A stretch of DNA of 32,008 nucleotides, from positions 1-32,008 of the forward strand of contig MFSU01000099.1 of assembly GCA_001785115.1 (NCBI GenBank). Direction: 5' to 3'. Shown here in pieces: positions 2,251 through 31,834 of this stretch. Each line of letters begins with the position of its first letter. Position 1 is the stretch's first letter. This DNA is from Candidatus Muproteobacteria bacterium RBG_16_65_34. GTDB taxonomy: Bacteria > Pseudomonadota > Gammaproteobacteria > Acidiferrobacterales > Sulfurifustaceae. Both the position numbers and the translations under genes were made by a program. Below the pieces are notes generated by a model. That model was not told the origin of the DNA, did no database searches, and worked only from the letters and a program-made list of their open reading frames with translations.

Positions 2251-2339
2251 ACAGGATTAACAGGATTACGCAGGATTAACAAGATTAAAGAAAATCTCGA
2301 ACTAATCCTGTGAATCCTGAAAAATCCTGTGAATCCTGT
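2251..2339. repeat. Foldback microrepeat element A: 4+4 units of ACAGGATTa (9/10 nt), mirrored
   Basis: Left arm 2251-2287 ACAGGATTA/ACAGGATTAC/GCAGGATTA/ACAAGATTA; right arm 2303-2339 TAATCCTGT/GAATCCTGA/AAAATCCTGT/GAATCCTGT. About 31/37 complementary by hand alignment; 15-nt loop. Confidence 0.9.
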
Positions 2340-2738
2340 CTATTCCTTTTTGTCCAGCTTGAGCGCCGCGGAGTTGATGCAGTAGCGCAGTCCCGTGGGC
2401 TCCGGCCCGTCGGGAAAGACATGCCCGAGATGCGCCCCGCACTGGCGGCAGCGCACCTCGGTGCGGCGCATGCCGATACTCCGATCCTCCTCCGCGGCGA
2501 GATTTCCCGGATCGAGCGGCGCATAAAAGCTCGGCCAGCCGCTGCCGGAGTCGTATTTGGTTTCGGAGTCGAAGAGCGGCGCGCCGCAACAGACGCAGCG
2601 GTAGACGCCTTGGTCGTGGCAGTCGGAGTATTTTCCCGTGAAAGCGCGCTCGGTGCCTTTCTCGCGCGTGATGCGATACTGCTCGGGTGTGAGCATCTGC
2701 TTCCATTCCTCGTTGGTTTTCGCGACCTTCCAGTCCAT
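2340..2738 (-). CDS. msrB: Peptide-methionine (R)-S-oxide reductase
   Basis: CxxC pairs, [10 protein letters not shown] and [11 protein letters not shown] motifs. Confidence 0.96.
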
Positions 2739-2753
2739 GGCGCACCTCCGTGG

Positions 2754-3428
2754 CTAGAGTTCGCTCCACATGCGCACCAGGTTCACGTACGCCGCGTTCA
2801 CCTGGGCGGTTTCCTCGGCCTGCGGCGCGTCGGCCAGCAGCTTCTCGCGCGCCAGGTTGAGCCCGTAGAGCAGCTCGCGCCGCGCCGGGTCGCGCACCAG
2901 GCTTTGCACCCAGGTGACGGCCACGAGCCGCTCGCCGCGCGTGACTTCGGCGACGCGATGCCGGCTCGAGGCGGGGTACATCACCGCGTCACCGGCCGGC
3001 AGCTTCATCTTATTTTCACCGAAGGCGGTGTGGATGACCAGTTCGCCGCCGTCGTAATCCCCAGGATCATTGAGGAAAATCGTGATCGCGATGTCGGTGC
3101 GGTAGAGTCCGGCCGCGCCGCCCATGATCGGGTCGTCCACGTGATCGCCGTAGCGCATGCCGGGGACGTAGCGCGCGTAAAAAGGGGCGGCGACCTTGAG
3201 CGGCAGCGCGCCCGCGCGGTAAACCGGATGGCGCACGAGGTCACCCATGACCAGATCGTCGAGCCGCGCGAGGTCCTGCGCGCCGCGTTCGGCCTCCTGG
3301 TTGTTTTTCACGCGCGCCGCGGCGAGACCGGCGGAGGCCTTGCCGTCCACGAACTTCACGCGCGCGAGCATCTCGCGCGCGCCCTGGAGCTGGTCGGGAG
3401 TAAGGATACTTTTCAGATGGAGCAGCAT
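2754..3428 (-). CDS. PKHD-type Fe(II)/2OG hydroxylase (PiuC/YbiX family)
   Basis: RYGDHVDDPIMG, FLNDPGDYDGGELVIH, LPAGDAVMYPASSRHRVAEVTRGERLVAVTWVQS. Confidence 0.93.
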   Translation of the reverse strand: MLLHLKSILTPDQLQGAREMLARVKFVDGKASAGLAAARVKNNQEAERGAQDLARLDDLVMGDLVRHPVYRAGALPLKVAAPFYARYVPGMRYGDHVDDPIMGGAAGLYRTDIAITIFLNDPGDYDGGELVIHTAFGENKMKLPAGDAVMYPASSRHRVAEVTRGERLVAVTWVQSLVRDPARRELLYGLNLAREKLLADAPQAEETAQVNAAYVNLVRMWSEL

Positions 3429-3434
3429 GGAAAG

Positions 3435-3511
3435 CGATCAGCGCTCAGCACTCAGCGGTCAGCTTAAACCGAAAGCGGTCGCGCTGAAAGCTGATCGCTG
3501 ATGGCTGATAG
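3435..3511. repeat. Foldback microrepeat element B: 4+4 heptamers, CnnTCAG mirrored by CTGAnnG
   Basis: CGATCAG CGCTCAG CACTCAG CGGTCAG (3435-3462), then CTGAAAG CTGATCG CTGATGG CTGATAG (3484-3511). Confidence 0.92.
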
Positions 3512-3515
3512 CGCT

Positions 3516-4229
3516 TCATCTGTAAAACAGCGTCAGCCCGCCGAAGAGGATCATCCACGCCACCACGCGGCGGAATACCTGTTCGTTGATGTGCAGGTGC
3601 AGTTGGTTGCTGAACCAGAGCGTGATCGCCAAGAACGGTCCGCTGAACACCATCATTTGCGCGATCTGTTCGGTATAGGTGCCGTGTAACAGGTACTCGA
3701 CGGCGCGCAGACTGTTCATCGCCAGAAAAAACGCAAAGGCGTAGTGGCGCACTGCGGCCTTTTCCGGAAACGTCGCCAGCAAGCGCGTCATGGCAATTGG
3801 CCCGCTGATGCCGAACATCGCCTGCGAGGTGCCGGCGAGCGTATCCATGACGCGCATCCCCTTTGGCCCGAACCGCGCGCGGTGCGGCGCGATCACCAGA
3901 AACAGTCCCGCCGCCGTGATCGCCGAGGCGAGCAGCATCTGGAATACCGTCGCCGAGAAGTAATAGAAGAGGGCGAATCCCGCGATCGCGCCGAGTCCCG
4001 CGAAGAACAGCATGCGCGCCATGAATCGGGCGTCCACCTTTTTGGGCGAGCGGATCAGTCCGATCGCGGCAACCAGAATCTGCGGCAGCACCGAGTAAAC
4101 GACGAGCGTCTTCGTGTCGTAGAAGAAGCTCAGCAGCGGCAGCATCAGAATCGTGCCGGCGAGACCGAAGACGATCTCGAAGGTGTAGGTGAGGACGCAG
4201 ACGGCGGTGAGGACGGCAAGCGCGAGCAT
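3516..4229 (-). CDS. TSUP family (sulfite exporter TauE/SafE-like) membrane protein
   Basis: Multi-TM protein of TauE/SafE layout: FEIVFGLAGTILMLPLLSFFYDTKTLVVYSVLPQ. Confidence 0.8.
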   Translation of the reverse strand: MLALAVLTAVCVLTYTFEIVFGLAGTILMLPLLSFFYDTKTLVVYSVLPQILVAAIGLIRSPKKVDARFMARMLFFAGLGAIAGFALFYYFSATVFQMLLASAITAAGLFLVIAPHRARFGPKGMRVMDTLAGTSQAMFGISGPIAMTRLLATFPEKAAVRHYAFAFFLAMNSLRAVEYLLHGTYTEQIAQMMVFSGPFLAITLWFSNQLHLHINEQVFRRVVAWMILFGGLTLFYR

Positions 4230-4351
4230 CAGCGCACCGGTGCGGAATGCGGGATGCGGAGCGCGGAACGGACGATCATCTCCCGGCAGAGGTCGGGCGC
4301 GAGCGCATTCGGGATTTCATAGGTGAAGCTGAGCGGTTTGATTTCGCGCAT
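4229..4351 (-). pseudogene. Truncated N-terminus resembling a 2OG-Fe(II) oxygenase/prolyl hydroxylase, running into a heptamer array
   Basis: MREIKPLSFTYEIPNALAPDLCREMIVR, then SALRIPHSAPVR encoded by the heptamer repeats; its TGA overlaps the ATG of the TSUP gene. Confidence 0.55.
4242..4269. repeat. Microrepeat element C: 4 tandem heptamers GCGGAAT-like, one arm
   Basis: GCGGAAT GCGGGAT GCGGAGC GCGGAAC, exact 7-nt register. Confidence 0.85.
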
Positions 4352-4383
4352 GAACGGCCGTCCGAGACCCTCCACCGCGCGGC

Positions 4384-5466
4384 TCAGTGTTTCTGGTTCA
4401 TCGCGGGGACCGCGCAGACCGGGGTGGCGCCGGCGGATGCCGCGAGCAGGCGCTCGATTGCGGCTTCCGCGTCCGCGCCGCCCGTGCGATGCGCGGCGAG
4501 CAGCCGCTGCGCCAACTCGAGCCAGTGCGCCTCGCCCTCGGCGATCGCCGCGCGCAGCGGCTCGATGTCATCGCGCGCAACCCAGCGGCGATAGCTTTCG
4601 AGCGCCTGCGGGAAAAGCTCGCGGCGCATGCCGGTGAAACAGGCGAAGTAAAAGTGCAGCGCCGGGGTATTGCGCCGCTCGATGAGCGTGGGCAGGGTGG
4701 AGGCGCAGTCCGCCAGAAGATCGCGGACCGCGCGCACCGCGATCTCGGTCCTGGAGCGTGCGAGCGCCGCGCGCATCGCGCCCCAGTCCGCGCCCAGACG
4801 TTCGCCCGCGAGCGCCTCACCCAGCTCGTGCAGGATCATGGTCTCGGTCTCGTTCTGCGTCATGCGATCGAGCGCGCCCTCCGCGTCGGCCTCGAAGTCG
4901 TAACAGGCGAGGGCGCGACTCATGGCCTCGTTCCGCCGGTTCCAGCGCCACTCCTCGATCTTCTCCCACAGAAACCGGCGCACCGACTCCTGGCGCACGA
5001 AGATCGTGTCGCCTTGCAGCATCGCGGGTGGCGCCTCGAGGTCGCGGGCATACTCGCAGGAGGAGACGACAACGGTATGGCCGGCGCGCTCCTCTTTGTG
5101 CAACAGCGTGCCGAGGAAGAAATGCGGTTTGTGGAAGCGGCCGTAGCCGCCGCTGTAGACATAGCCTCGCGGGATCAGCTCGCGGTTTGCGGTCTCGGTG
5201 TCGAACGGGTCGGAGGCGCCGCGCTCCAGCGGCAGCGGCTCGAAGGCGCTCGCTTCCAGTCCCTGCCACATCGCCTCGCGCTCGTCGAGCCAGGCGCTCA
5301 CGTCCTGTTGCGGCAGGTTGTACGAGAACGACAGTTGATGCTCCCAGCGGTAATACTCGCGCATCTTCATGAGAAAGACGCAGAGTGTGAAATCGCCGGC
5401 GTGCCGCGCATCGGAGATGTGGCAGTTCTTCTGGACTGTATTGGCGAGGAGTCCCAGGTTCAGCAT
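4384..5466 (-). CDS. Conserved hypothetical protein
   Basis: Long ORF, protein-like composition; plausible start MLNLGLLANTVQKNCHISDARHAGDFTLC at 5466 rather than 5652. Confidence 0.75.
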   Translation of the reverse strand: MLNLGLLANTVQKNCHISDARHAGDFTLCVFLMKMREYYRWEHQLSFSYNLPQQDVSAWLDEREAMWQGLEASAFEPLPLERGASDPFDTETANRELIPRGYVYSGGYGRFHKPHFFLGTLLHKEERAGHTVVVSSCEYARDLEAPPAMLQGDTIFVRQESVRRFLWEKIEEWRWNRRNEAMSRALACYDFEADAEGALDRMTQNETETMILHELGEALAGERLGADWGAMRAALARSRTEIAVRAVRDLLADCASTLPTLIERRNTPALHFYFACFTGMRRELFPQALESYRRWVARDDIEPLRAAIAEGEAHWLELAQRLLAAHRTGGADAEAAIERLLAASAGATPVCAVPAMNQKH

Positions 5467-5675
5467 GGCGCGCACCGAAACGCATCCGTCGTTTATGGGC
5501 AAAGTATATGCCCGGCCTCCATGCGGAAACCAGCATGAATTTTGCGCGGCTATGGCCGCTGCGGCGTCGAGACCTTCTACTTTGGGGGTATCGCTTAGGT
5601 GATATCGATCCGGCCTCGATTTCTGGTTATTTATCAGGTTTACTGCCGGCAACGGCTTTCGATCGGGAGAACGTC

Positions 5676-5876
5676 ATGGACAAGACCTATCATGAAACCA
5701 TCGGCAAGATGGAAAAGCAGGGCGTGGATAGGGAATACATCAACGGTTGGGCCAGCGGATTTCTGCATAACCCCAGGCGCGAGGAGCAGCGTCTGACGCA
5801 GGCGTATGAGGCCGGGTATGCCGACGGCCACGCGGGCAAGACCGACGGCTTCGGATCCTGGGCGAAGAAGCTCTGA
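5676..5876 (+). CDS. Small hypothetical protein (66 aa)
   Basis: MDKTYHETIGKMEKQGVDREYINGWASGFLHNPRREEQRLTQAYEAGYADGHAGKTDGFGSWAKKL; plausible internal start in ORF 5508-5876. Confidence 0.7.
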   Translation: MDKTYHETIGKMEKQGVDREYINGWASGFLHNPRREEQRLTQAYEAGYADGHAGKTDGFGSWAKKL

Positions 5877-5905
5877 CGCCACGCCGCCGCGGCGCGGCGC
5901 CCCGG

Positions 5906-6334
5906 CTACCCGCCGCGCTGCGCCCGGTCGTACCATTTCCGGGCCTCCGGCTCGTTCTGCGGCACGCCCAGGCCTTGCTCGTACATCATCCCCAGGGTCA
6001 TCTGCGACCCGGCGAGACCTTGTTCCGCCGCTTTTTGAAACCAGCGAAACGCCTCGGCCGCGTTCTTCGGCGCGCACTCGCCCTGCAGGTACATGAAGCC
6101 CAGGCCGTGCTGGGCGAGGGCGATGCCCTGCTCGGCGGCGGCGCGCATCCACTTGAACGCCAGGAGATCGTTTTTGACGACCCCAAGGCCGTTCTGATGC
6201 ATGATCGCCATGCGATACTGGGCCCGCGGGTCGCCCTGTTCCGCGAGCGGCGAGAGCAGCTTGAGCGCGTTGGCGAACTCCTTGGCCTCGAAGGCGGCGA
6301 TACCGCTCGCAAGCTCCATGTTGGGCTCGGACAT
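5906..6334 (-). CDS. SEL1-like (TPR) repeat protein
   Basis: Repeated A.Y..A.M...G.GV..N...A..W...AA.QG.A.AQ..LG.MY units. Confidence 0.92.
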   Translation of the reverse strand: MSEPNMELASGIAAFEAKEFANALKLLSPLAEQGDPRAQYRMAIMHQNGLGVVKNDLLAFKWMRAAAEQGIALAQHGLGFMYLQGECAPKNAAEAFRWFQKAAEQGLAGSQMTLGMMYEQGLGVPQNEPEARKWYDRAQRGG

Positions 6335-6417
6335 CGATTCACTCCGGTCGGAATTCGTGTGGAGAGATTGTGCCAAAGCCGACGCCCCGGCGCACGCGTA
6401 GGCCCATAAAAATTAAC

Positions 6418-6489
6418 CACAGAGGACACAGAGAACACAGAGGATTTTTTTGGATGGATCATTTCTCTGTGCTCTCTGTGCCCTCTGTG
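6418..6489. repeat. Foldback microrepeat element D: 3+3 units of CACAGAGga (9 nt), mirrored
   Basis: CACAGAGGA CACAGAGAA CACAGAGGA (6418-6444); TTCTCTGTG CTCTCTGTG CCCTCTGTG (6463-6489). Confidence 0.92.
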
Positions 6490-6526
6490 GTGAAATATCG
6501 ACCTGTCCGCTTGAGAGAAAGCCGCC

Positions 6527-7090
6527 ATGGCGCTGCGTTTGAAAACCCGCTTCAGCACCAAGGGTCCCAAGACCCTGGAGCAACGCGCGACGGTGATTTC
6601 GAGCAACCTCTGGCGCATCGCGCAGCATGCGGCGCGCCACATGGAGGTCGAGGGCCTCAAGCTGGGCGGGGACCGGCAGGTGGCGCGGGTGATCGTCGAG
6701 TTCATCGCCTTCCAGGTGCAGATTGCGGACCGCATCGTTTATGGGCAGCTCGCCGAGGACGACCGCCGCACGCTCATCAACGCCCTCGGCCGGCAGCTTG
6801 CGCGCAACGTGCAGGAGAACCTCGCCGAGTTTATCGGTCCGGGGGAGTACGCCGAGTCTTTTGTCGGCACGCTCAATGCGCGCTTCGCCGAGTACGCGGA
6901 CTGCGCGTATACGGAGAAGGGACCGAGCTATAACTTCGTGCGCATCCTCGGGGAGAAGGTGGCCGAGGCGATGGCCGCCACCGAAACCAAATGGGTGCTG
7001 GAGCATGTGATGGAGATCGAGGCGCCGGAGGTGGTGAATGCCACCAGGAAGCTGGTCGGAGAAGTGCTCGGCGTGAAGACCGGCGGATAG
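6527..7090 (+). CDS. Conserved hypothetical protein (187 aa)
   Basis: Complete ORF MALRLKTRFSTKGPKTLEQRATVISSNLW...; no family recognised. Confidence 0.8.
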   Translation: MALRLKTRFSTKGPKTLEQRATVISSNLWRIAQHAARHMEVEGLKLGGDRQVARVIVEFIAFQVQIADRIVYGQLAEDDRRTLINALGRQLARNVQENLAEFIGPGEYAESFVGTLNARFAEYADCAYTEKGPSYNFVRILGEKVAEAMAATETKWVLEHVMEIEAPEVVNATRKLVGEVLGVKTGG

Positions 7091-7172
7091 AACAGACTTA
7101 AATGACAATTCATAACCAACTGATAATACGATACAATCATTGCACCTCGTGACCGCAAACATGACGCCGACC

Positions 7173-8283
7173 ATGCAAGAGCTGAATCCCCTGATTAGCA
7201 AACTCGAAGACCTCAAGACCCGCCTGACGGAAATTCGGGGGGGTCTTTGACTACGACACCAAGCACGAGCGCCTGACCGAGGTCCGGCGCGAGCTCGAAC
7301 AGCCGAATATCTGGGATAATCCCAAGCTTGCCCAGGAGCTGGGACGCGAGCGCGCGCGCCTGGAGGAGGAGCTCGGGCGGCTCGATCGCCTCGACGGCGA
7401 GCTTACTCAGGCGCATGAGCTGCTGGAGCTGGCGCGCGATGAGCAAGACGCCGAGGTGGCGCAATCGGTGGCAGGTGACCTCGATCGCCTGGAGCAGCAA
7501 GTCGCCGAGCTCGAGTTCCAGCAGATGTTCTCGGGCGAGATGGACGCGCATAATGCCTTCGTGGACGTCCAGGCCGGCGCCGGCGGTACCGAGGCCCAGG
7601 ACTGGGCCAACATGCTGCTGCGCATGTACCTCATGTGGGGCGACAAGCGCGGCTTCAAGACCGAGGTGCTCGAGCTTTCGGAAGGTGAGGTGGCGGGCAT
7701 CAAGAGCGCCACGGTGAAGTTCACCGGGCCGTACGCCTACGGGTGGCTGCGCACGGAGTCGGGTGTGCACCGCCTGGTGCGCAAGTCGCCATTCGATGCC
7801 GGGCACCGGCGGCATACCTCATTCGCCTCGGTGTTCGTCTATCCCGAAGTGGACGAGGATATCGCGGTGGAGGTCAATCCGGCCGATCTGCGCGTGGATA
7901 CCTACCGTGCAAGCGGGGCAGGTGGCCAGCACGTGAACCGCACCGACTCCGCGGTGCGTATCACGCATCTGCCGAGCGGGGTTGTGGTCCAGTGCCAGTC
8001 GGACCGCTCGCAGCACCGCAACCGCGCCGAGGCCATGACGATGCTGCGCGCGCGGCTCTACGAGCGCGAGATGAAGGAGCGGCTCAAGGAGAAGCAGAAA
8101 CTCGAGGAGACCAAGGCCGACGTCGAGTGGGGCCACCAGATACGCTCCTATGTCCTCGATCAGTCGCGTATCAAGGACCTGCGCACGGGGGTGGAAGTCG
8201 GCAATCCGGATGCGGTATTGAACGGCGAACTCGACAAGTTCATCGAGGCGAGTCTGCGGGACCCTGCGGTAAACATAAGGTAA
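7173..8283 (+). CDS. prfB: Peptide chain release factor 2, expressed through programmed +1 frameshift
   Basis: ORF1 [25 protein letters not shown] (7173-7250; ATG 7161 also possible), then +1 frame [16 protein letters not shown]...[18 protein letters not shown]...[20 protein letters not shown]. Confidence 0.97.
7235..7251 (+). promoter_or_regulatory. RF2 programmed +1 frameshift site
   Basis: ATTCGGGGGGGTCTTTGAC: SD-like G-run, CTT slip codon at 7245-7247, TGA-C at 7248-7251. Confidence 0.95.
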
Positions 8284-8324
8284 GAAATAAGAACAATGCT
8301 GTAACACTCTGAATATAATAAATA

Positions 8325-9827
<1,503 letters not shown>

Positions 9828-9837
9828 AAAGAAATAG

Positions 9838-9864
9838 ACAGGATTAACAGGATTTACAGGATTA
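9838..9864. repeat. Single-arm microrepeat, 3 x ACAGGATTw (same word family as element A)
   Basis: ACAGGATTA ACAGGATTT ACAGGATTA beginning 10 nt after the lysS stop codon. Confidence 0.88.
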
Positions 9865-9872
9865 GAATCAAA

Positions 9873-9914
9873 AGCTAAAAGCTATAGGCTATAGGCTATA
9901 GGCTAACGGCTAAC
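9873..9914. repeat. Heptamer tandem array, 6 x GGCTAtA-like
   Basis: AGCTAAA AGCTATA GGCTATA GGCTATA GGCTAAC GGCTAAC, 42 nt in perfect 7-nt register. Confidence 0.92.
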
Positions 9915-9920
9915 GGCCTT

Positions 9921-10790
9921 TCATCCCCCCAGCAGCTTCTTGAGATCGGCGAGATCGGTTTTGGTCTCTTCCAGCAGCGCCAGGCTTTCCTCGGGCGTAA
10001 TGCCGATCTTGCCGAACGCGGGCACGCCGCCCCAGTCGACCTGCGCATGGCGGTGGCCGGTGCCGGCGTAGCTCAGGAGGTTCGCCACCATGACCACATC
10101 GACGTAATCCACGGTCGCGCTGTAGCGGCCGAGGTCCTCGTGCTCCGCGGCCACCGCGATGAGCTCCGCGGGGAACTGCCAGGTCTCGAGGATGAGCTTG
10201 CCGATCGAGGTATGCATGTTTTCGATCACCTGGTCGATCGCCTGCTCGTCGTTGGCGAGCTCGGGGAAGTCCTCGACGCGCACGAGCAGCGGAAGCGCTC
10301 CGATGTCGTGCAGCAGCCCCGCGAGCAGCGCCTCATCCGCGGACAGCGAGGTATAACGACGCGCGAGCATGCCGCTGATCGCCGCTACGTTCGTGCCGTG
10401 CAACCAGAGTGTCTGCAAGCGCTTGCGCAGACGCGGGGTCTTGGCCTGGAAGATCTGCTGCATGATGAGGCTCGTGACGAGGTCGCGCACCGTCTTATTG
10501 CCCAGCCGGGTGACCGCAAGCTGCACGCTGTCGATATAGGTGCGCCCGCGGTACAGGGCGCTGTTCGCGACCTGGATCAGGCGCGCGCTTAAGGCCACGT
10601 CCATCGCGATCATGCGCGCGACCTGGGCCGTGGAGGTATTCTCATCCTCCACCGCCTGGCGTACCTTCGTGGCCACCTCCGGCAGGGTGGGGAGCTTCAG
10701 GGCCTTGCTCTTGAGATCTTCCAGAACGACCGCAATGAAGCGATCGACGATATCGGGCGCGGCCGCCGGCAGTGCCTTGGGTTGATTCAC
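9921..10790 (-). CDS. HDOD domain protein
   Basis: LPTLPEVATKVRQAVEDENTSTAQVARMIAMDVALSARLIQVANSALY...LLAGLLHDIGALPLL. Confidence 0.92.
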   Translation of the reverse strand: MNQPKALPAAAPDIVDRFIAVVLEDLKSKALKLPTLPEVATKVRQAVEDENTSTAQVARMIAMDVALSARLIQVANSALYRGRTYIDSVQLAVTRLGNKTVRDLVTSLIMQQIFQAKTPRLRKRLQTLWLHGTNVAAISGMLARRYTSLSADEALLAGLLHDIGALPLLVRVEDFPELANDEQAIDQVIENMHTSIGKLILETWQFPAELIAVAAEHEDLGRYSATVDYVDVVMVANLLSYAGTGHRHAQVDWGGVPAFGKIGITPEESLALLEETKTDLADLKKLLGG

Positions 10791-10897
10791 GACCCCTCTT
10801 GCAGATGTGCGGGTTATAGAGATGATGATAGACCATGGTTGCCCCCGTGCCCCGGGATTCCGGCGCCGTCCGCGCGCGTGGTGGCATATTTATTGGC

Positions 10898-11860: not shown

Positions 11861-11933
11861 TTAAAACGACGTGGGTAGTAACGATAACGCAGCAAACGAT
11901 CGTAAAACGAACATAAAAAGCAGGAGAACTCTC

Positions 11934-17075: not shown

Positions 17076-17162
17076 ACCGCAGATGAACGCCGATAGACGC
17101 AGATTTTGCAGGCAAGCGGCTTTTGGTTTTTATCGGCGTTCATCCGCGTTCATCCGCGGTTC
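17076..17162. repeat. Foldback microrepeat element E: 3+3 units of CGCAGATGAA (10 nt), mirrored
   Basis: CGCAGATGAA CGCCGATAGA CGCAGATTTT (17078-17107); TATCGGCGTT CATCCGCGTT CATCCGCGGT (17131-17160); begins right after the hisZ TGA. Confidence 0.9.
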
Positions 17163-17185
17163 CGGTTTTCTTTAGAGATTTTTAG

Positions 17186-18487
<1,302 letters not shown>

Positions 18488-18491
18488 AGAG

Positions 18492-18547
18492 TTTCAAGTT
18501 CCAAGTTCAAAGTTCCAAGTTAAAACTTTAAACTTGAAACTTGGAAC
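18492..18547. repeat. Foldback microrepeat element F: 8 consecutive heptamers TTCCAAG...CTTGGAA, mirrored
   Basis: TTTCAAG TTCCAAG TTCAAAG TTCCAAG TTAAAAC TTTAAAC TTGAAAC TTGGAAC. Confidence 0.92.
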
Positions 18548-18556
18548 TGGAAGTGT

Positions 18557-21707: not shown

Positions 21708-21769
21708 CACCTGGCTCCGAGGGGTTTCTGTTGACCTCGTGTTAGGATTTCCCGCGGATCGCCAGGGGA

Positions 21770-22423: not shown

Positions 22424-22490
22424 CCGACGTGCCGGTTTACAATATCCGGGCCCGTTACTTGTTGCCATCCCTCAATCGGCGAATTTGGAC

Positions 22491-23216
22491 ATGAGCGAAT
22501 CGCTGTTCCAATACCGCCTGCGGATCAGCCCGCATAGCCGCCGCATCCGCTTGCGCGTTACGCCGCGGCTCGGCTTGGAGGTGGTGATTCCGTCCGGCTT
22601 CGACCCAGGGCGGGTGCCCGTGCTGCTCAAGCGCAAGCAACGCTGGATTCGCGCCGCGTTGGAACGGATGGAATCGCTGCGTGCGCTCCATGCGCCCGAC
22701 TGGTGCCTGCCCGCGCAGATTCAGTTGCCGGCGGTTGGCCTCATCTGGGCGGTGTCGGCGAAGCCGTCCGACAACGCCGCCCGCACGGCGGTGCGCGAGA
22801 CCGGAGCCGGGCAACTGCTGATCTCGGGCGCCGTTGAGAATGAGCAGGCGTGCCGGGCGGCGCTGGGGCGCTGGCTGCTGCGCCAAGCCCACCGGCATTT
22901 GCTACCGGGGCTTGAGCGCACCAGCCACGACCTGGGACTGCCGTACCAGCGCGCGCTGATCCGGCGCCAGAAAACCCGCTGGGGCAGTTGCTCCCGCGAC
23001 GGCACGATTTCCCTGAATGCCAAGCTGCTGTTTCTTTCCCCGGAGACGGTCAATTATGTGATGATTCACGAGCTGTGCCACCGGGTGGAGCTGAACCACT
23101 CCCCGCGGTTCTGGCGGCTGGTGGAACGGCATTGCCCCGATTTTCGGCGGATCAACGCGCAACGGCGCGATCTGTGGAAGGCGGTACCGCACTGGGCGGA
23201 AAAGGCGGTGTTATGA
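22491..23216 (+). CDS. YgjP-like metallopeptidase (DUF45/M48-like)
   Basis: RRQKTRWGSCSRDGTISLNAKLLFLSPETVNYVMIHELCHRVELNHSPRFW with HExxH. Confidence 0.94.
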   Translation: MSESLFQYRLRISPHSRRIRLRVTPRLGLEVVIPSGFDPGRVPVLLKRKQRWIRAALERMESLRALHAPDWCLPAQIQLPAVGLIWAVSAKPSDNAARTAVRETGAGQLLISGAVENEQACRAALGRWLLRQAHRHLLPGLERTSHDLGLPYQRALIRRQKTRWGSCSRDGTISLNAKLLFLSPETVNYVMIHELCHRVELNHSPRFWRLVERHCPDFRRINAQRRDLWKAVPHWAEKAVL

Positions 23217-23431
23217 AGGAAATTGAATTCAAACTGATCGGAGACTATGTCGAGTTGAATCAGCTGTTGAAGCTGGCCGGCGTGTGTGCCAGCGGCGGCG
23301 CCGGCAAGCTGTTGGTGGCGTCCGGCGAAGTCTCGGTGGACGACCAGGTGGAGCTGCGCAAGACCTGCAAGATTCGCGCGGGCCAGGTGGTGCGCGTGGA
23401 CGACGTGCGCATTCGCGTAGCTAATCCGTGA
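23213..23431 (+). CDS. RNA-binding S4 domain protein (YbcJ-like)
   Basis: MKEIEFKLIGDYVELNQLLKLAGVCASGGAGKLLVASGEVSVDDQVELRKTCKIRAGQVVRVDDVRIRV; ATGA overlap with the preceding gene. Confidence 0.9.
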   Translation: MKEIEFKLIGDYVELNQLLKLAGVCASGGAGKLLVASGEVSVDDQVELRKTCKIRAGQVVRVDDVRIRVANP

Positions 23432-23697
23432 TAACAGGACGGACCAGGCTCAGGAGGGAAGGCGCCGCCTGGCCGCGGAGCTATTCGCTGAAATCCAACC
23501 CGGCGATGACGTGGGTTCAGTTGTCCTTGGGGCCCTTCTTCATTCAGCATCTTCTCATTGACGTCATTGCGGTCGCGCTCGCCTGACTTGATCTTTTCGA
23601 TGTAACGCGCGTTGCACTCCGCTCCGCCACGGCGATCTTGGAAAAACCGGGGTCAGAGAAGAATGGCACTTACTTAAACGGTTCCATGCTCGATGAA

Positions 23698-23820
23698 GGG
23701 TGGGTTAGGCACGCAGTTTGTGCCGTAACCCACCAGATATGCCGCCAGGCACTCATTAAAAAAGGCGTTGTGTTGCTACGCAACGCTTGGTGGGTTACGC
23801 AAAAAACGCTAACCCACCCA
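23698..23820. repeat. Composite palindromic element with GTGGGTTA/TAACCCAC hairpins
   Basis: GTGGGTTAGGCAC...GTGCCGTAACCCAC (23700-23733), GGTGGGTTACGC..CGCTAACCCACC (23789-23818), internal GCGTTG/CAACGC. Confidence 0.82.
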
Positions 23821-23830
23821 TTTCGACTTA

Positions 23831-25041
23831 ACAGGCTGTTGAAAAATACCCCTTCATCTACAACCGAACTCTCCATTCCATTAATTTCCCGACCTTCTCG
23901 CCAGTTTCCGGGTTGGGTGCTGTCCCGGTTCTGACCTTCAAGACGTGCGTGGGTGTCTGGATCACCCGGTTGCCGCGTTCAGTGCCAGGATATTTCGCAT
24001 TCGCACCAGGTTCCAGCTCAGCATGCCGAACTGGAACAAGGCATCCACTCGCGCCAGGCCGCGTTGTTTGACTTGGCGTAAGGTACCGATACTTTTGTTC
24101 CAGCCAAACGCCTCTTCGATGCGTTTGCGGATTTTCTGGCTGACCGCATAACCGGCGTGGCGCTGCGTGCGTCGGTCGATGGCGCTGCCTTTCTTCTTCG
24201 CCGCCACATGCACCGTGATGCGCTCATCGCGACAGCCCCGGACGAAGCTCTCGACGTCATAGCCTTTGTCGCCGCCCACCGTCTTGCGGCGCTTACCCGG
24301 TAGGGCCCTCAGCAGTGCCAGCGCCGTGTCGCGCTCGGCCGTACCACTGGCGTGACTGACTTTGGCTTGCGCGATGAGGCCGTGGCGGTTTTCCATGACG
24401 CTGTGGCCCTGGTAACACAGGATGGCTCCGGTCCCTTGGGATTTGCGGTACAAGCGGGCGTCCGGGTCGGTGACGGAATGGTGGGTGTCGTTCTTGCGTT
24501 CTTCGCCGCGGAAATCGCGCTCCTCGTTGCGGCCGGTGCCGCCCGGACCTTCGTCTTTCGGGCGGAAGCTCTTCTGGGAGGCCCAAGCCTGGATCAGGGT
24601 GCCATCGACGCTGAAGTGCTCCTCCGAGAGCAGGCCGCGGGTGCGGGCCATTTCGACCACGGTCTCAAAGAGTTCGCCCACCACGTCGTGGGCCAGCAGC
24701 CGGTCGCGGTTCTTACTGAAGGTGGAGTGGCTCCAGACCGCCTCGTCCATCGTCAGGCCCACGAACCAGCGGTAGAGCATGTTGTAGCGCACCTGTTCCA
24801 CCAGTTGGCGTTCGCTGCGGATGGTGTAGAGGACCTGCAGCAGCAGGGCGCGGACCAGGCGCTCCGGGGGGATCGACTTGCGGCCGGCCTCGGCGTAGAT
24901 CGACTCAAACAGCCCGTCGAGATCCTTCAGTGCCTCATCGATCAGATTGCGCAGGGCGCGCAGCGGATGATCCAGCGGCACGAAATTTTCCACGGTGGCC
25001 GTCACAAACAGGGCGTTCTGACTGATGTCGGCACCGCGCAT
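23831..25041 (-). mobile_element. IS5-like insertion sequence, ends not both resolved
   Basis: Intact transposase ORF plus an ACAGGCTGTTGAAAAA end-like sequence at 23831; no matching end seen on the other side. Confidence 0.7.
23962..25041 (-). CDS. IS5 family-like transposase (DDE; DUF772 N-terminal domain)
   Basis: LDHPLRALRNLIDEALKDL...ALLLQVLYTIRSERQLVEQVRYNMLYRWFVGL...HFSVDGTLIQAWAS...GGDKGYD...KRIEEAFGWNK. Confidence 0.94.
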   Translation of the reverse strand: MRGADISQNALFVTATVENFVPLDHPLRALRNLIDEALKDLDGLFESIYAEAGRKSIPPERLVRALLLQVLYTIRSERQLVEQVRYNMLYRWFVGLTMDEAVWSHSTFSKNRDRLLAHDVVGELFETVVEMARTRGLLSEEHFSVDGTLIQAWASQKSFRPKDEGPGGTGRNEERDFRGEERKNDTHHSVTDPDARLYRKSQGTGAILCYQGHSVMENRHGLIAQAKVSHASGTAERDTALALLRALPGKRRKTVGGDKGYDVESFVRGCRDERITVHVAAKKKGSAIDRRTQRHAGYAVSQKIRKRIEEAFGWNKSIGTLRQVKQRGLARVDALFQFGMLSWNLVRMRNILALNAATG

Positions 25042-25277
25042 CGGGCTATCCTTCGTGTGATTATCGTCCTGAGATACTATCAGCGATAGTTCGCGGAAGG
25101 AATTGGCGACCCGGCTTGCCGCCGAAAGGCGTTATGCCACGCATCCAAAAGGGCGTCCCGGCAAAAAAGAGCGGCGTCGGATTATTCAAATCAAGAAGGC
25201 ACGGATCGAATAAAAAATTGGCCGGGTGGAGCAATCCGGGACATCTCAGTCTGAGACCCCGGTTATCTGAGAAGACG

Positions 25278-26093
25278 ATGGGGCCGCTGTTAACTCAAGA
25301 AGTCCACGAAACACTGCGCGCTGCTGCGCGTGCCGGTGTGCCCACGGTTGAGTGTTCGCTGGACCTGGATCGTACGACGACGCGGGTCGAGGTCGACGCG
25401 GAGGGATGGATCTGGCGCGGCCAGCGATTCCCGTATTTGAAGGCGTGTAAGGACCGAACCATCTACCACTGGGTTGACGCGACGTTTGCGCCGGCGGCGC
25501 GGTTCACCACGTCGCTGATCAAGTTGGTGCCGACGGAGTGGGGACCGCCGACGTTCGAGATCGATGGCATCAAGATGTTGCCCACGGCGCGGGTCTCGCC
25601 CTATGCGGATGCCGAACGCAAAGTGGGATTGATACAGCCGCGCGGCAAGGTAATATTGGATACCTGCGGCGGCCTTGGCTATTTCGCCGCCTGGTGTTTG
25701 CAGGGCGAGGCGCGGCACGTGCTTTCTTACGAGAAGAATCCCGACGTGCTTTGGCTGCGCAGCCTGAATCCCTGGTCGCCGGCGAGTGACGATCGATTAA
25801 CGTTGACTGCGGGCGATATTGGCGAGCAGATCGCCGCGCTGCCGAGCGAGTCGGTGGATGCCGTGCTGCACGACCCGCCGCGCTTCGGCATCGCCGGCGA
25901 ACTCTACGCCCAGGCGTTTTATGACCAACTGGCCCGCGTGCTCAAGCGCCACGGCAAGCTGTTTCATTACACCGGCACACCGAACAAACTCACCAGCGGC
26001 CGCGATGTGCCGAACGAAGTGGCGAAGCGTCTGCGCCAGGCGGGGTTTGTTACGGAGTTGGTTGGGGATGGGGTGTTGGCGGTGAAGAAATAG
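25278..26093 (+). CDS. Class I SAM-dependent methyltransferase resembling the archaeal COG2521 family
   Basis: PPTFEIDGIKMLPTARVSPYADAERKVGLIQPRGKVILDTCGGLGYFAAWCL...VLHDPPRFGIAGELYAQAFYDQLARVLKRHGKLFHYTGTPNK. Confidence 0.75.
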   Translation: MGPLLTQEVHETLRAAARAGVPTVECSLDLDRTTTRVEVDAEGWIWRGQRFPYLKACKDRTIYHWVDATFAPAARFTTSLIKLVPTEWGPPTFEIDGIKMLPTARVSPYADAERKVGLIQPRGKVILDTCGGLGYFAAWCLQGEARHVLSYEKNPDVLWLRSLNPWSPASDDRLTLTAGDIGEQIAALPSESVDAVLHDPPRFGIAGELYAQAFYDQLARVLKRHGKLFHYTGTPNKLTSGRDVPNEVAKRLRQAGFVTELVGDGVLAVKK

Positions 26094-26094
26094 A

Positions 26095-26130
26095 CCTCGG
26101 TCCGGAGCACGGTTTCCGCTAATGTTCCGG
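26095..26130 (+). repeat. REP-like boundary motif, divergent copy 1
   Basis: CTCGGTCCGGAGCACGGTTTCCGCTAATGTTCCGG. Confidence 0.5.
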
Positions 26131-26240
26131 CGAGTTGATTCGGCTTGAGGCAAACTCCCGGCTCCGCCGGGAGACTCACAACGGTTCGACCTGCGGCCTT
26201 TGATTCCCACGATTCAGCTAACCGGATACAGAATAGAACC

Positions 26241-26582
26241 ATGAGCAACCTGCCCAAATGTCCGAAGTGTGGCTCGGAGTACACCTACGAAGATGGAAAT
26301 ATATTCGTCTGCCCGGAGTGTGCGCACGAATGGTCAAAAGAGGCGGTCACCGAAAGCAGCGACGATGTCCGAGTGATCAAGGATGCGCACGGCAACGTGC
26401 TGCAAGATGGCGATAGCGTTACCGTCATTAAAGACCTCAAGGTCAAGGGTTCATCGTTGGTGGTCAAGGTCGGCACCAAGGTCAAAAATATCCGGCTGGT
26501 CGATGGCGATCACAATATCGACTGCAAGATTGACGGGATTGGGCCGATGAAGCTGAAATCCGAGTTTGTGAAAAAAGCATAA
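26241..26582 (+). CDS. yjdM: PhnA/YjdM family zinc-ribbon protein
   Basis: [35 protein letters not shown]...[69 protein letters not shown]. Confidence 0.96.
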
Positions 26583-26705
26583 TTCTGGTGGGTCTTCGTG
26601 AAATTAAAGGGCCCAGGCTGGAGTATTCGATTGAGCTAACCCGATATTGTGATGTCTGTCATTTATAATGAATGCGGTCAACACAAGCATAGCGAGGACG
26701 TAAGT

Positions 26706-27407
26706 ATGGGTGCACAGTGGAAAACAAAGATCAAAGAGACAACGGCCGCGGCCAAAGGCCGGATCTTCACGAAGCTGGCCAAGGAGATCATGATCGCCGC
26801 GCGCAACGGCGCCGATCCGAACATGAATTCAAAGCTGCGCATGGCGGTGGAGCAGGCCAAGAAGGCCTCGATGCCCAAAGACAACATCGAGCGGGCGATC
26901 AAGAAGGGTGCGGGTCTCCTGGATGGAGGGGTGAGCTACGAGAAGCTCCTCTACGAAGGGTTTGCGCCGCACCGGGTGCCCGTGATCGTCGAGTGCCTGA
27001 CGGACAACGTGAACCGCACGGCCTCCAACGTTCGGGTGCTGTTTCGCCAAGGGCATCTGGGCGCCTCGGGTTCGGTATCCTGGGATTTCGACCATCTCGG
27101 CATGATCGAGGCGACCCCGGAATCCGCGGGCGCCGACCCGGAGCTTGCCGCCATCGAGGCCGGCGCCCGTGATCTGGAGCCGGCGGAAAACGGCGCCACA
27201 CTGTTTCTCACCGACCCCTCCGATCTGGATGCCGTGGCCCGCGCTCTGCCGGCGCATGGATTCGTCATGCAGTCCGCGCAATTGGGTTACCGGCCCAAAA
27301 ATCCGGTCACGCTGGGCGCGGCGGAGCGCACCGAGGTCGAAGCGTTCCTGGAGGCCATCGATGCCGACGATGACGTGCAAAACATCTATGCGGGGCTGGC
27401 GGGTTAG
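26706..27407 (+). CDS. YebC/PmpR family protein
   Basis: [52 protein letters not shown]...[18 protein letters not shown]. Confidence 0.95.
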
Positions 27408-27427
27408 CTCAATCTGAAACAAACAAT

Positions 27428-27455
27428 CGGGGTCAAAGTTTCCGCTGATATTCAC
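27428..27455 (+). repeat. REP-like boundary motif, copy 2
   Basis: CGGGGTCAAAGTTTCCGCTGATATTCAC. Confidence 0.6.
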
Positions 27456-27461
27456 GTTCGC

Positions 27462-27698
27462 GCGCTTTATGCGGTCGCCGCCCGCCGGGTGCGCTTGCGG
27501 TCGAAGAATCGTCCGTTTCTGGACGGAAACAAGCGCACCGCCGCCGACTGCATGCCGACCTTTCTGGCGCTGAACGGCATCGAGCCGATCCTGACTCCGG
27601 AGCAGCTCTTCGAATGGGCCTTGCAGGTGGCGGTCGGCGAGCTGGACCGCGCCGGGCTGGCGAAACTGCTTCGCGCGCATTCCCGCCGCAGCCGTTGA
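27462..27698 (+). pseudogene. C-terminal remnant of a Doc/Fic (death-on-curing) protein
   Basis: SKNRPFLDGNKRTAADCMPTFLALNGIEPILTPEQLFEWALQVAVGELDRAGLAKLLRAHSRRSR*; no N-terminal half, and the core motif reads RPFLDGNKR rather than HPFxDGNKR. Confidence 0.82.
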
Positions 27699-27756
27699 CC
27701 CCGCAGCGAGCCGCTTGGTGCTTTGTAGTCCAGCCGCCGGCCGCGCCCCGAAACCT

Positions 27757-27793
27757 CAGGGTCAGAGCAAAGTCTCCGCTAATATTTATTCGG
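27757..27793 (+). repeat. REP-like boundary motif, copy 3
   Basis: CAGGGTCAGAGCAAAGTCTCCGCTAATATTTATTCGG. Confidence 0.6.
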
Positions 27794-27847
27794 GCCCGAA
27801 GATGGCCGACGAGCGCGGGTAGCAGGCACCCCATGGCCGGTCAGCCC

Positions 27848-27877
27848 TTGCCGGGGGAGGGGGCGTTCCGGTAGAAT
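27848..27877 (+). promoter_or_regulatory. Candidate sigma70 promoter of the rpsF operon
   Basis: TTGCCG - 18 nt - TAGAAT, 109 nt upstream of the rpsF ATG. Confidence 0.5.
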
Positions 27878-27890
27878 CCGCCGCTCTTTT

Positions 27891-27928
27891 AGGCAGTCAG
27901 CCCCTCGGGGCACCCTTGCCTTACCGGC
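27891..27928 (+). promoter_or_regulatory. Candidate S6:S18-binding leader structure upstream of rpsF
   Basis: AGGCAG-(GCCCC tc GGGGC)-accc-TTGCCT-TACCGG: nested helix ending in an ACCG element, resembling the known rpsF-leader S6:S18 motif. Confidence 0.5.
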
Positions 27929-27985
27929 CGAAAATAACAACAAAACGGCAGCGGAAGGCTGATGTTTATCCATAAGGAGTGTTGC

Positions 27986-28405
27986 ATGCGTCATTACGAA
28001 GTCGTGTTTCTGGTCCATCCGGATCAGAGCGAGCAGGTGCCGGCCATGATCGAGCGCTACCGCGCGCTCATCGAGTCGGCCCAAGGCAAGATTCATCGCC
28101 TCGAGGACTGGGGCCGCCGCCAGCTCACCTTTCCCATCAACAAGGTGCACAAGGCGCACTACGTGCTCATGAACATCGAGTGCGCCCTGGAGACCCTGCG
28201 CGAGCTCGAGTCGGCCTTCCGCTTCAACGACGCCGTGCTGCGCTCACTCGTCATCAGTCGCATAGAGCCCGTGACCACCCCCTCGCCGCTCATGAAGGAA
28301 AAGCAGCAGGAGGAGGCGCGGTCGGCCCCCGCGGCCGAAGCGGCGCCGGCCAGCGAGGCCGCACCGGCCGCACCGGCCGAAACGGGTGCGGACGCCGCGC
28401 CTTGA
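27986..28405 (+). CDS. rpsF: 30S ribosomal protein S6
   Basis: [53 protein letters not shown]. Confidence 0.98.
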
Positions 28406-28432
28406 TCTGAACGTATTCCGGAGCGAGAAGCC

Positions 28433-28657
28433 ATGTCACGTTTTTTCAAACGCAGGAAATACTGCCGCTTCACGGCGGAGAAGGTAGAGGAGATCGACTA
28501 CAAGGATCTCGCGGTACTCAAGTCCTTCATCACCGAGACCGGCCGCATCATCCCGAGCCGCAACACCGGCACCAAGGCGCGCTACCAGCGCCAGCTCACG
28601 CGCGCCATCAAGTACGCCCGCTACCTCGCGCTGTTGCCGTACAGCGACAGCCATTAA
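28433..28657 (+). CDS. rpsR: 30S ribosomal protein S18
   Basis: [64 protein letters not shown]. Confidence 0.99.
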
Positions 28658-28678
28658 ACCGGATTCGAGGATTCAACG

Positions 28679-29128
28679 ATGGAAGTCATCCTGCTTGAGA
28701 AGGTGCGTAACCTCGGCGACCTGGGCGAACAGGTCAAGGTCAAGTCCGGGTTCGCGCGCAATTACCTCATTCCCTACGGCAAGGCCGTGACCGCCAACGA
28801 GGCCAACCGCGCCAAGTTCGAGGTGCGCCGCGCCGAGCTCGAAATGGCCCAGGCCGATGTGCTCGGCAAGGCGCGCGCGCGCGGCGAGAAGCTGAACGGC
28901 GCGACCGTCCAGATCGTGCGCAAGGTGAGCGAGGAGGGCAAGCTCTTCGGCTCCGTCAGCATCAAGGACATCTGCGATGCGATGCACGAGGCCGGCTTCG
29001 ATCTGGCTAAATCCGAGGTCCATCTCGACCACGGCGCGCTCAAGGAAGTGGGCGACCACGAGATTTCGATCGCGCTCCATCCCGAGGTCAGTGTCAAGAT
29101 CATCGTTTCGGTGGTCGGCGAGAAGTAA
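28679..29128 (+). CDS. rplI: 50S ribosomal protein L9
   Basis: MEVILLEKVRNLGDLGEQVKVKSGFARNYLIPYGKAVTANEAN. Confidence 0.99.
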   Translation: MEVILLEKVRNLGDLGEQVKVKSGFARNYLIPYGKAVTANEANRAKFEVRRAELEMAQADVLGKARARGEKLNGATVQIVRKVSEEGKLFGSVSIKDICDAMHEAGFDLAKSEVHLDHGALKEVGDHEISIALHPEVSVKIIVSVVGEK

Positions 29129-29280
29129 GCCTTACGCCTTGTCAAGACGCCGCTTGTCCGTCCCCGCTTGCATTGGGCGCACGGCGGGATAATGATGACT
29201 GCCAGTCGCAGGAGCCGTTGCCGAATGTTTTTTGGCGGCTTGTCTGCAGAGCAGCGCAACCACAGAAAGGGCAGGGCACG

Positions 29281-30675
29281 GTGGAGGAACGCGCCTATTC
29301 CAGGCGAAGCGGTGCGGAAGCGAGCGTCGATGCGCTCAAGGTTCCGCCCCAATCGATCGATGCGGAGCAGTCCGTCCTGGGCGGTCTGCTGCTCGACAAC
29401 GCGAGTTGGGACCGGGTCGCCGATCTCCTCACCGAAAACGATTTCTATCGCCGCGAGCATCGGCTGATCTTCCGGGCGATCGCCGCGCTGTGCCAGGAGA
29501 GCAGCCCCGCGGACGTCGTGACCGTCTCGGAGTGGCTGGAGCAGAGCGGGGATCTCGAGAAGGTGGGCGGGCTCACCTACCTGGGCAGTCTCGCCAACAA
29601 CACCCCCAGCGCCGCCAATATCGCCGCGTACGCCGCCATCGTGCGCGAACGCGCGATCATGCGCAGCCTCGTCGAGGCGGCGGGCGATATCAGCGGCGCC
29701 GCCTACAGCCCCGAGGGCCGCAACGCCGCGGAGCTGCTGGATTTCGCCGAAGGCCGCATCCTCGAGATCAGCGAGCTCGGCCCGCGGCGCGGCGAGTTTC
29801 AACCCATCAACCGGCTGCTCTCCCAGGCCGTCGACCGCATCGATGCGCTCTACCGCTCCGAGTCCTCGATCACCGGCGTGCCCACGGGCTTCACCGACCT
29901 CGATGAGATGACCTCGGGTCTGCAAGCCGCGGACCTCATCATCATCGCCGGGCGCCCGTCCATGGGCAAAACCTCGCTCGCCATGAACATCGCCGAGAAC
30001 GCCGCCGTGGGCCACAAGGCGCCGGTGGCGGTGTTCAGCATGGAGATGCCCGGCACGCAGCTCGCGATGCGCATGATGGCCTCGCTCGGGCGCATCAACG
30101 CCCACCGCGTGCGTACCGGCAAGCTCGATGACGAGGATTGGCCGCGGCTCACCTCGGCCGTGAGTCTCTTGAACGAGGCGCCGATCTATATCGACGACAC
30201 GCCGGGGCTATCGCCGCTCGAGCTGCGGGCGCGCGCCCGGCGCATCAAGCGCGAGCACGGGCTCGGCCTGATCCTCGTGGATTATCTCCAGCTCATGCAG
30301 TCCCCCGACGCGGCGAACGAGAACCGCGCCACCGAGATCTCCGGTATCACGCGCGCGCTCAAGAACCTCGCCAAGGAGCTCAACGTGCCGCTCATCGCCA
30401 TGTCGCAGTTGAACCGCAGCGTGGAGAGCCGCAACGATAAGCGCCCGCTCATGGCCGACCTGCGCGAGTCGGGCGCCATCGAACAGGACGCCGACGTGAT
30501 TTTGTTCATCTACCGCGACGAGGTGTACAACAAAGAGAGCGCAGACAAGGGTGTGGCCGAGATCATCATCGGCAAGCAGCGTAACGGCCCCACGGGGACC
30601 GTGCGGCTCACCTTTTTGGGCGAGTACACGCGCTTCGAGAACTACACCAGCGCCGGACACGACGGAACTTACTGA
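29281..30675 (+). CDS. dnaB: Replicative DNA helicase
   Basis: VPPQSIDAEQSVLGGLLLDN, IIAGRPSMGKTSLAMNIAENAA, DYLQLM; GTG start at 29281 chosen over the ORF start 29173. Confidence 0.97.
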   Translation: MEERAYSRRSGAEASVDALKVPPQSIDAEQSVLGGLLLDNASWDRVADLLTENDFYRREHRLIFRAIAALCQESSPADVVTVSEWLEQSGDLEKVGGLTYLGSLANNTPSAANIAAYAAIVRERAIMRSLVEAAGDISGAAYSPEGRNAAELLDFAEGRILEISELGPRRGEFQPINRLLSQAVDRIDALYRSESSITGVPTGFTDLDEMTSGLQAADLIIIAGRPSMGKTSLAMNIAENAAVGHKAPVAVFSMEMPGTQLAMRMMASLGRINAHRVRTGKLDDEDWPRLTSAVSLLNEAPIYIDDTPGLSPLELRARARRIKREHGLGLILVDYLQLMQSPDAANENRATEISGITRALKNLAKELNVPLIAMSQLNRSVESRNDKRPLMADLRESGAIEQDADVILFIYRDEVYNKESADKGVAEIIIGKQRNGPTGTVRLTFLGEYTRFENYTSAGHDGTY

Positions 30676-30684
30676 ACGCGATCT

Positions 30685-31758
30685 ATGGGACGCCCGGCGC
30701 GCGCGCTGCTCGACGCCGGAGCACTGCGCCACAATCTCGGTGAGGTCAAGCGCCGCGCGCCGCGCGCGCGCGTGATGGCCATCGTGAAGGCCAGCGGCTA
30801 CGGCCACGGGCTCGCGTGGGTGGCGCGGACGCTGGCCGACGCCGACGCCTTCGGCGTGGCGAGCGTGGAGGAGGGGATGACGCTGCGCGCGGCGGGCGTC
30901 ACGCGCCCGATCTGCCTGCTGGCGGGATTCTTCGAAGACTCCGAGCTGGACTTGCTCTCGCGGCATCGGTTGTCGCCGGTGGTGCATCACGCGGACCAGG
31001 TGCACGCGCTCGAGACAGCCCAGGTTGAGGCCCCGCTTTCCATCTGGCTCAAGCTCGATACCGGCATGCACCGGATCGGCTTTGCGCCCGAAGCCTTCGA
31101 CGACGTCCTCGCGCGGCTCAGGGCCTGCGCCGCGGTGGGCGAAATCCGGGCGATGACGCATTTCGCCAACGCCGACGCCGCGGCCGACGCCGCCACACGT
31201 GCGCAGATCGAAGCCTTTCGCAGGCATGCCGACGACCGCGGGCTCGAGACGAGCCTGGCGAACTCCGCCGGCGTGCTGGCCTGGCCCGAGAGCCACGCCG
31301 ATTGGGTGCGCCCCGGCATCATGCTTTACGGCGGATCGCCGCTTCTCGGAAAATCGGCCGAGGCGCTCGACTTGAAACCCGTGATGACGCTGACCACGGC
31401 GCTCATCGCGGTGCATCGGCGCCGCAAGGGCGAGGCGGTCGGCTACGGCGGGGATTATCGCTGCCCCGAGGACATGCCGGTGGGGGTGGCGGCCATCGGT
31501 TATGGCGACGGCTACCCGCGCCACGCGCCCGCGGGCACGCCGGTGCTGGTGAACGGTCGCCGCGTGTCCTTGATTGGGCGCGTCTCCATGGACATGATCA
31601 TGCTCGACCTGCGTACGCAGCCCGAGGCCAAGGTCGGCGACCCGTTGGTGCTGTGGGGCGAGGGTTTGTCTGTGGACGAAATCGCCGCCCGGGCCGGCAC
31701 GATTTCCTATGAGCTGCTGTGCCGCGTGGCCGAGCGCGTCCCGCGAGTAGTTATATGA
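30685..31758 (+). CDS. alr: Alanine racemase
   Basis: MAIVKASGYGHGL, HFANAD, WVRPGIMLYGGSP, GYGDGYPR, GRVSMDMIMLDL. Confidence 0.97.
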   Translation: MGRPARALLDAGALRHNLGEVKRRAPRARVMAIVKASGYGHGLAWVARTLADADAFGVASVEEGMTLRAAGVTRPICLLAGFFEDSELDLLSRHRLSPVVHHADQVHALETAQVEAPLSIWLKLDTGMHRIGFAPEAFDDVLARLRACAAVGEIRAMTHFANADAAADAATRAQIEAFRRHADDRGLETSLANSAGVLAWPESHADWVRPGIMLYGGSPLLGKSAEALDLKPVMTLTTALIAVHRRRKGEAVGYGGDYRCPEDMPVGVAAIGYGDGYPRHAPAGTPVLVNGRRVSLIGRVSMDMIMLDLRTQPEAKVGDPLVLWGEGLSVDEIAARAGTISYELLCRVAERVPRVVI

Positions 31759-31766
31759 TTATTCGC

Positions 31767-31793
31767 CGCAGAGATCGCAGAGGACGCAGAGAT
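31767..31793. repeat. Single-arm microrepeat G1: 3 x CGCAGAGrw (9 nt)
   Basis: CGCAGAGAT CGCAGAGGA CGCAGAGAT starting 9 nt after the alr stop. Confidence 0.85.
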
Positions 31794-31816
31794 TTAACCT
31801 AGAAAAAGCAGTTGTC

Positions 31817-31834
31817 CGCAGATTTCGCAGATTA
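31817..31834. repeat. Single-arm microrepeat G2: 2 x CGCAGATTw (9 nt)
   Basis: CGCAGATTT CGCAGATTA. Confidence 0.65.

Follow-up and report, generated by a model that had tools for sequence, protein, structure and literature searches.

Three groups of described elements bear on a class of short intergenic repeats that we analyzed in a 32,008-nucleotide stretch of DNA (henceforth, the window) from Candidatus Muproteobacteria bacterium RBG_16_65_34, namely, contig MFSU01000099.1 (C99) of a 2.03-Mb genome bin that is 75% complete. The first is the intervening sequence (IVS) of 23S rRNA genes, known from Leptospira and Coxiella, in which an open reading frame (ORF) for the S23 four-helix protein (PF05635) lies inside terminal inverted repeats; the Coxiella version has a 28-bp terminal stem, is excised by RNase III, and contains, before the S23 ORF, tandem heptamers (GACAGAT) whose copy number varies between strains (PMC4990558). 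The second comprises intergenic tandem 7-nt units, such as the short tandemly repeated repetitive (STRR) sequences of cyanobacteria and the GGGAATC heptamers of Xanthomonas, 70-75 of which occur in inverted pairs (PMC4692102); the portions of this literature available to us treat them as repeats, in terms of G-quadruplexes and regulation, and not as the ends of a gene-carrying cassette. The TAACTGA sequences of Beggiatoaceae, for which a regulatory role has been proposed, are likewise abundant intergenic 7-mer direct repeats, but with one inverted case only (PMC4679880). The third group includes miniature inverted-repeat transposable elements (MITEs) and the paired repetitive extragenic palindromes (REPs) called REPINs, associated with REP-associated tyrosine transposases (RAYTs): like the elements described here, these are short, noncoding, multicopy inverted repeats that probably stem from a gene-carrying partner. 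Heptamers in the Coxiella S23 IVS and mirrored heptamers in Xanthomonas are already published; in the open-licence literature, we found no paper joining such arrays to genes and none linking the GxxExxY family to repeats.

We propose that the window elements are mostly noncoding, emptied, MITE-like remnants of single-gene, mobile-like cassettes, and we assign this explanation, mechanism included, a probability of roughly 0.7. A complete cassette measures about 0.35-0.6 kb and consists of an array of ~3-6 units, one small ORF, and an inverted array of the same word. There are two classes: the 7-nt class carries the four-helix protein (PF05635/TIGR02436), and the 9/10-nt class carries the GxxExxY nuclease (PF13366/TIGR04256). 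We regard the anatomy and origin of the cassettes as highly likely, whereas the detailed mechanism discussed below is tentative.

We searched for these two small protein families as candidates for genes lying near such repeats. This genome has two GxxExxY and four four-helix genes, and all six are flanked by mirrored arrays, with 9-nt arms (ACAGGATTA and CGCAGAGAA) around the former and 7-nt arms (GCCTATA, GTGAACC, CGAGGGG, and GTGCGGA) around the latter. Across 200 genomes from this phylum, complementarity between left and right flanks, at a Smith-Waterman (SW) threshold of ≥14, was seen for 21/33 loci of the four-helix gene and 26/31 of GxxExxY, compared with 5/128 loci of other small genes and 6-15% of pairs of mismatched flanks. 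Significant periodicities are 7/14 at all 15 four-helix loci that show one and 9/10 at all 11 such GxxExxY loci. The same division is seen in other genomes and on cyanobacterial plasmids, where heptamer arrays, clearly mirrored in most cases, flank the S23 gene at each of the seven distinct loci inspected (from Calothrix, Nostoc, Geminocystis, Anabaena, Stanieria, and Trichormus). The original prediction, made from the window sequence alone, had named STRR heptamers as the closest analogue, and the comparison proves apt, with STRR-type arrays flanking these plasmid genes in the same anatomy. On the Anabaena sp. 90 plasmid pANA02 (L328), an S23 cassette sits between cas6 and cas4 in a type I-D CRISPR operon.

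Known IVSs sit in 23S rRNA genes, whereas the four-helix loci here have protein genes as neighbors and an array on each side; an Rfam search found rRNA at none of 20 four-helix loci, and we accordingly rejected rRNA insertion. The elements share with the IVS stem-forming terminal inverted repeats; a PF05635 ORF inside the element is present at the four related loci of this genome and absent from the window copies. No IVS-type precedent was found for the GxxExxY class. Three other small genes also lie between well-matched inverted arms (L197:17416-17835, L213:7061-7510, and L208:1771-2235); by reading, these are CBS-domain-like, NUDIX-like, and one unassigned, and they may be passengers or may sit between neighboring solo elements.

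Presence and absence at orthologous sites further support a cassette. At the first of three plasmid sites, a four-helix cassette occupies plasmid C of Trichormus and one Scytonema plasmid and is lacking from the plasmids of Nostoc linckia, Tolypothrix, and N. carneum, which are about 98% identical; the sequence is AAAAAGTAATTAAC where the site is empty and AAAAAGTAAT-cassette-GTAATTAAC where it is occupied, so that GTAAT flanks the cassette as a direct repeat of 5 bp. The left arrays of the two occupied copies differ by 14 nt, which indicates that slippage acts on these arrays, on unit number only. Cassettes are likewise present or absent, at lower identity, in a Calothrix integrase gap and a Nostoc TraM gap (sites 2 and 3) and in the radA gap of Bacteroides. 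A derivation of empty foldbacks from gene-carrying ones is supported most directly by the ribF/ileS gap of one genus, which holds a full cassette in three genomes (G025, G017, and G048), a decayed one in two (G160 and G184), a remnant of about 50 nt in four (G040, G124, G132, and G204), and no cassette in four (G044, G112, G021, and G009). The arms are of the CGCAGAG type at the remnants versus CGCAGATGAA at the full copies, so the word can change. A decayed GxxExxY element (L305, G160:C246) additionally contains a hairpin insertion (GCATGGACTTTTTCCACCC...GGGTGGAAAAAGTCCATGC), apparently of another repeat family.

In the window, a tandem-repeat search together with direct reading confirmed 7-, 9-, and 10-nt arrays at the gaps that had been named for them, as follows:

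2251..2347, no strand assigned, foldback A: 9-nt word ACAGGATTA, arms 2251-2288 and 2304-2347; family of GxxExxY cassette L126; the right end (CTATTC) includes the msrB stop codon (CTA at 2340-2342)
3433..3509, no strand assigned, foldback B: 7-nt word CnnTCAG, in the gap between genes for a 2OG-Fe(II) oxygenase (piuC-type) and TauE/TSUP
4241..4268, forward strand, weak unmirrored array: 7-nt TGCGGAA, akin to the GTGCGGA of four-helix cassette L131
6415..6492, no strand assigned, foldback D: 9-nt word CACAGAGga, ends ACC...GGT; contains an exact 18-mer found in at least 117 contig stretches of many phyla
9838..9864, forward strand, unmirrored 9-nt array: ACAGGATTA, 3' of the lysS stop
9870..9917, forward strand, 7-nt array: GGCTATA/GGCTAAC, abutting the 9838..9864 array; word group of four-helix cassette L128
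17076..17161, no strand assigned, foldback F: 10-nt word CGCAGATGAA / GTTCATCCGC, in the hisZ-purA gap; word of GxxExxY cassette L166
18490..18552, no strand assigned, foldback H: 7-nt word AAGTTCC/TTCAAAG, between the purA stop and tRNA-Leu
31767..31834, forward strand, unmirrored double array: CGCAGAGat, then a short CGCAGATT array oriented likewise, following alr

Mirroring as originally claimed stands in part: five foldbacks (2251-2347, 3433-3509, 6415-6492, 17076-17161, and 18490-18552) are strong on folding, with energies for A, B, D, F, and H of -45, -41, -46, -40, and -25 kcal/mol, whereas 9838-9917 and 31767-31834 are each two unlike arrays side by side. Mirrored heptamers had already been described in Xanthomonas, as cited above. 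The element at 17171-17191 has two copies only. A repeat of ~100 nt adjoins the CGCAGATT array both in the window (31834-31930) and at L205 (about 8890-9010), and a separate inverted repeat (CCGCCACTAAATCGAC) lies at 31948-32008.

The window elements belong to a much larger set in the 1.18 Mb of this genome, window included, that was scanned. For periods 7, 9, 10, and 14, the scan gave 149, 180, 82, and 55 arrays, whereas a Markov-3 control gave 0, 1, 10, and 10. Of the 492 arrays with a period of 7-10 or 14, 267 have a mirrored partner no more than 1 kb away; for periods of 11-13, 15, or 18, this is true of 8 out of 178. The suspicion of a single, under-described element class is borne out. 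Foldbacks number 121; most of their loops measure 10-60 nt, with some reaching several hundred nucleotides. A gene call based on a simple codon model places 355 arrays between genes and 71 within them, and an array occupies 208 of the 568 gaps of at least 40 nt. The period-7 arrays, mostly intergenic, thereby match the STRR description, which does not cover the 9/10-nt class. Foldback ends show a consensus common to copies (tTcaC-CGCAGAG, gAATaG-ACAGGATT, and ggAAC-CGCAGAT), and the same genome contains GxxExxY cassettes with ACAGGATT and CGCAGAG arms, i.e., gene-carrying relatives with shared ends. As short, noncoding, multicopy elements with inverted-repeat ends, they resemble MITEs; unlike those of MITEs and REPINs, their ends are tandem microrepeats, and no known transposase is encoded by the partner gene. 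A preference for stop codons does not extend to a general rule: four mapped cassettes lie directly 3' of a stop in tight gaps, yet the genome-wide median distances to the upstream stop and downstream start are 60 and 74 nt (p=0.24), and we rejected stop-codon targeting.

The original prediction further held that architecture rather than sequence is conserved. Instead, particular words recur across phyla and fall into two sets, 9/10-nt CAG-type and 7-nt, divided by the protein carried. The exact 18-mer of foldback D (ACCACAGAGGACACAGAG) is found, among the matches listed, in Acidobacteria, Bacteroidota, Chloroflexi, Planctomycetes, Cyanobacteria, Chlamydiae, Nitrospirae, Proteobacteria, and archaea; just 2 of the 117 listed stretches have a GxxExxY gene or fragment, and hence empty forms predominate among these loci. 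The spread of one word across phyla tells against the proposal that local slippage and foldback synthesis build mirrored arrays at random gaps, with no mobile element involved. That process would account for the word drift inside an array and for the differing unit number between copies of one cassette, and slippage does alter the latter, as seen in the 14-nt difference between Trichormus and Scytonema, but nothing beyond it. As the generator of the elements it fails on the occupied and empty site pairs, in which a single-gene segment is gained or missing as a block, and on the variable linker bases, which are mostly unmirrored. In most comparisons, made on small samples, agreement of these bases from arm to arm is close to chance, the exception being linker 2 of 12 cross-phylum elements, with a small match excess (0.33 versus 0.08). 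We therefore set aside foldback copying of the arms, consider this origin very improbable, and read the arm word as maintained by recognition, not by one arm being copied from the other.

Another possibility is that the elements are kept for a role at the RNA level, with the transcribed hairpins serving as processing sites, terminators, or stabilizers and the genes being incidental passengers. The foldbacks do give strong RNA hairpins, divergent gaps are under-represented (31/321 array placements versus 108/606 gaps), and the Coxiella S23 IVS is an RNase III substrate (PMC4990558). Against this, nearly half of the arrays have no close mirrored partner, orthologous gaps of relatives have no element, and two unrelated protein families, each with its own unit length, occur specifically between the arms; we accordingly judge such a role unlikely as the explanation. 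An Rfam search of the window returned tRNA only, with no rRNA and no known RNA family for the arrays.

The properties of the GxxExxY protein also favor the proposed cassettes. The GxxExxY protein (PF13366, PDDEXK_3) belongs to the PD-(D/E)XK nuclease family and keeps the E, D, ExK core (E38, D78, E88, and K90), along with a Q. Its AlphaFold (AF2) model (pLDDT, 93.7) has no structural match below E=0.001, the best, sub-threshold matches being to the PD-(D/E)XK nuclease SSO0001, which we take to be a Cas4 protein, and to lambda-type exonucleases. The gene's presence predicts array number, a positive outcome for the check on co-occurring proteins that had been suggested with the original prediction: the CRCAGAG array pattern CRCAGAGNNCRCAGAG occurs at least twice per genome in 22/33 genomes with GxxExxY versus 6/167 without (p=4e-16), and within one family, where kinship is not fully removed, in 21/26 versus 4/21 (p=3e-5).

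The four-helix protein (PF05635, 23S_rRNA_IVP), of which 2GSC and 2RLD are solved relatives, matches bAvd weakly and below threshold. This match, along with the three Y1_Tnp genes in this genome, might suggest that an unrelated enzyme in trans, such as a RAYT/Y1 transposase or a reverse transcriptase (RT) like that of diversity-generating retroelements, moves the elements, with the small proteins being accessory. We consider this no more probable than the RNA-level role. A search of this genome (75% complete) detected no RT, and genomes with the four-helix gene are not enriched for RT (8/35 versus 63/165), unlike the co-occurrence seen for GxxExxY; an RT in trans was hence rejected. None of the three Y1 genes examined shares its ends with the arrays: their immediate complementary flanks are other sequences, one of them REP-like, and within the family Y1 presence does not predict array number (p=0.27), on which grounds a RAYT/Y1 mover was also rejected. 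Two RAYT-like Y1 genes (L354 and L356) lie between inverted flanks of their own, in one case REP-like (TGTAGGTTGGGGTGAGCCCC), which are distinct from the arrays.

Several observations weigh against emptied mobile cassettes. The window foldbacks have no ORF remnants, so that it is the words and ends shared with cassettes that suggest such a descent, and orphan 7-nt words only partly match the four local four-helix cassettes (38% versus 12% when shuffled, at ≤1 mismatch). The four-helix protein lacks a catalytic domain. One genome that is 99% complete (G037) has 34 CRCAGAG-array matches with no GxxExxY detected; a divergent helper or past activity is possible there. The ribF/ileS and Nostoc TraM gap sequences differ beyond a clean insertion, target duplication is seen at one site only, an aggregate scan of this genome's foldbacks for such duplications gave nothing at a fixed offset, and transposition itself was not observed.

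Taking the cassettes to be mobile, we postulate that the encoded protein recognizes the repeat unit and helps to insert the cassette into intergenic gaps, possibly through a staggered cut of ~5 bp, and that it might act in trans on emptied foldbacks. Once transcribed, the arms would form hairpins open to trimming by RNase III, and an insertion inside an operon would thereby be tolerated. More broadly, we weigh at even odds the possibility that these elements constitute an unrecognized, cross-phylum class of mobile DNA with tandem-microrepeat ends, comprising a nuclease-driven GxxExxY lineage (9/10-nt) and an S23-driven lineage (7-nt), of which STRRs, the Xanthomonas heptamers, and the rRNA intervening sequences would be members or remnants. 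In that case, two widespread but unexplained small families, S23/four-helix and GxxExxY, would gain a testable job, and the short tandem repeats reported independently from cyanobacteria, from Xanthomonas, and from rRNA intervening sequences could share a single explanation. Such arrays, present in about a third of the gaps of this genome, are also a possible source of its intergenic hairpins.

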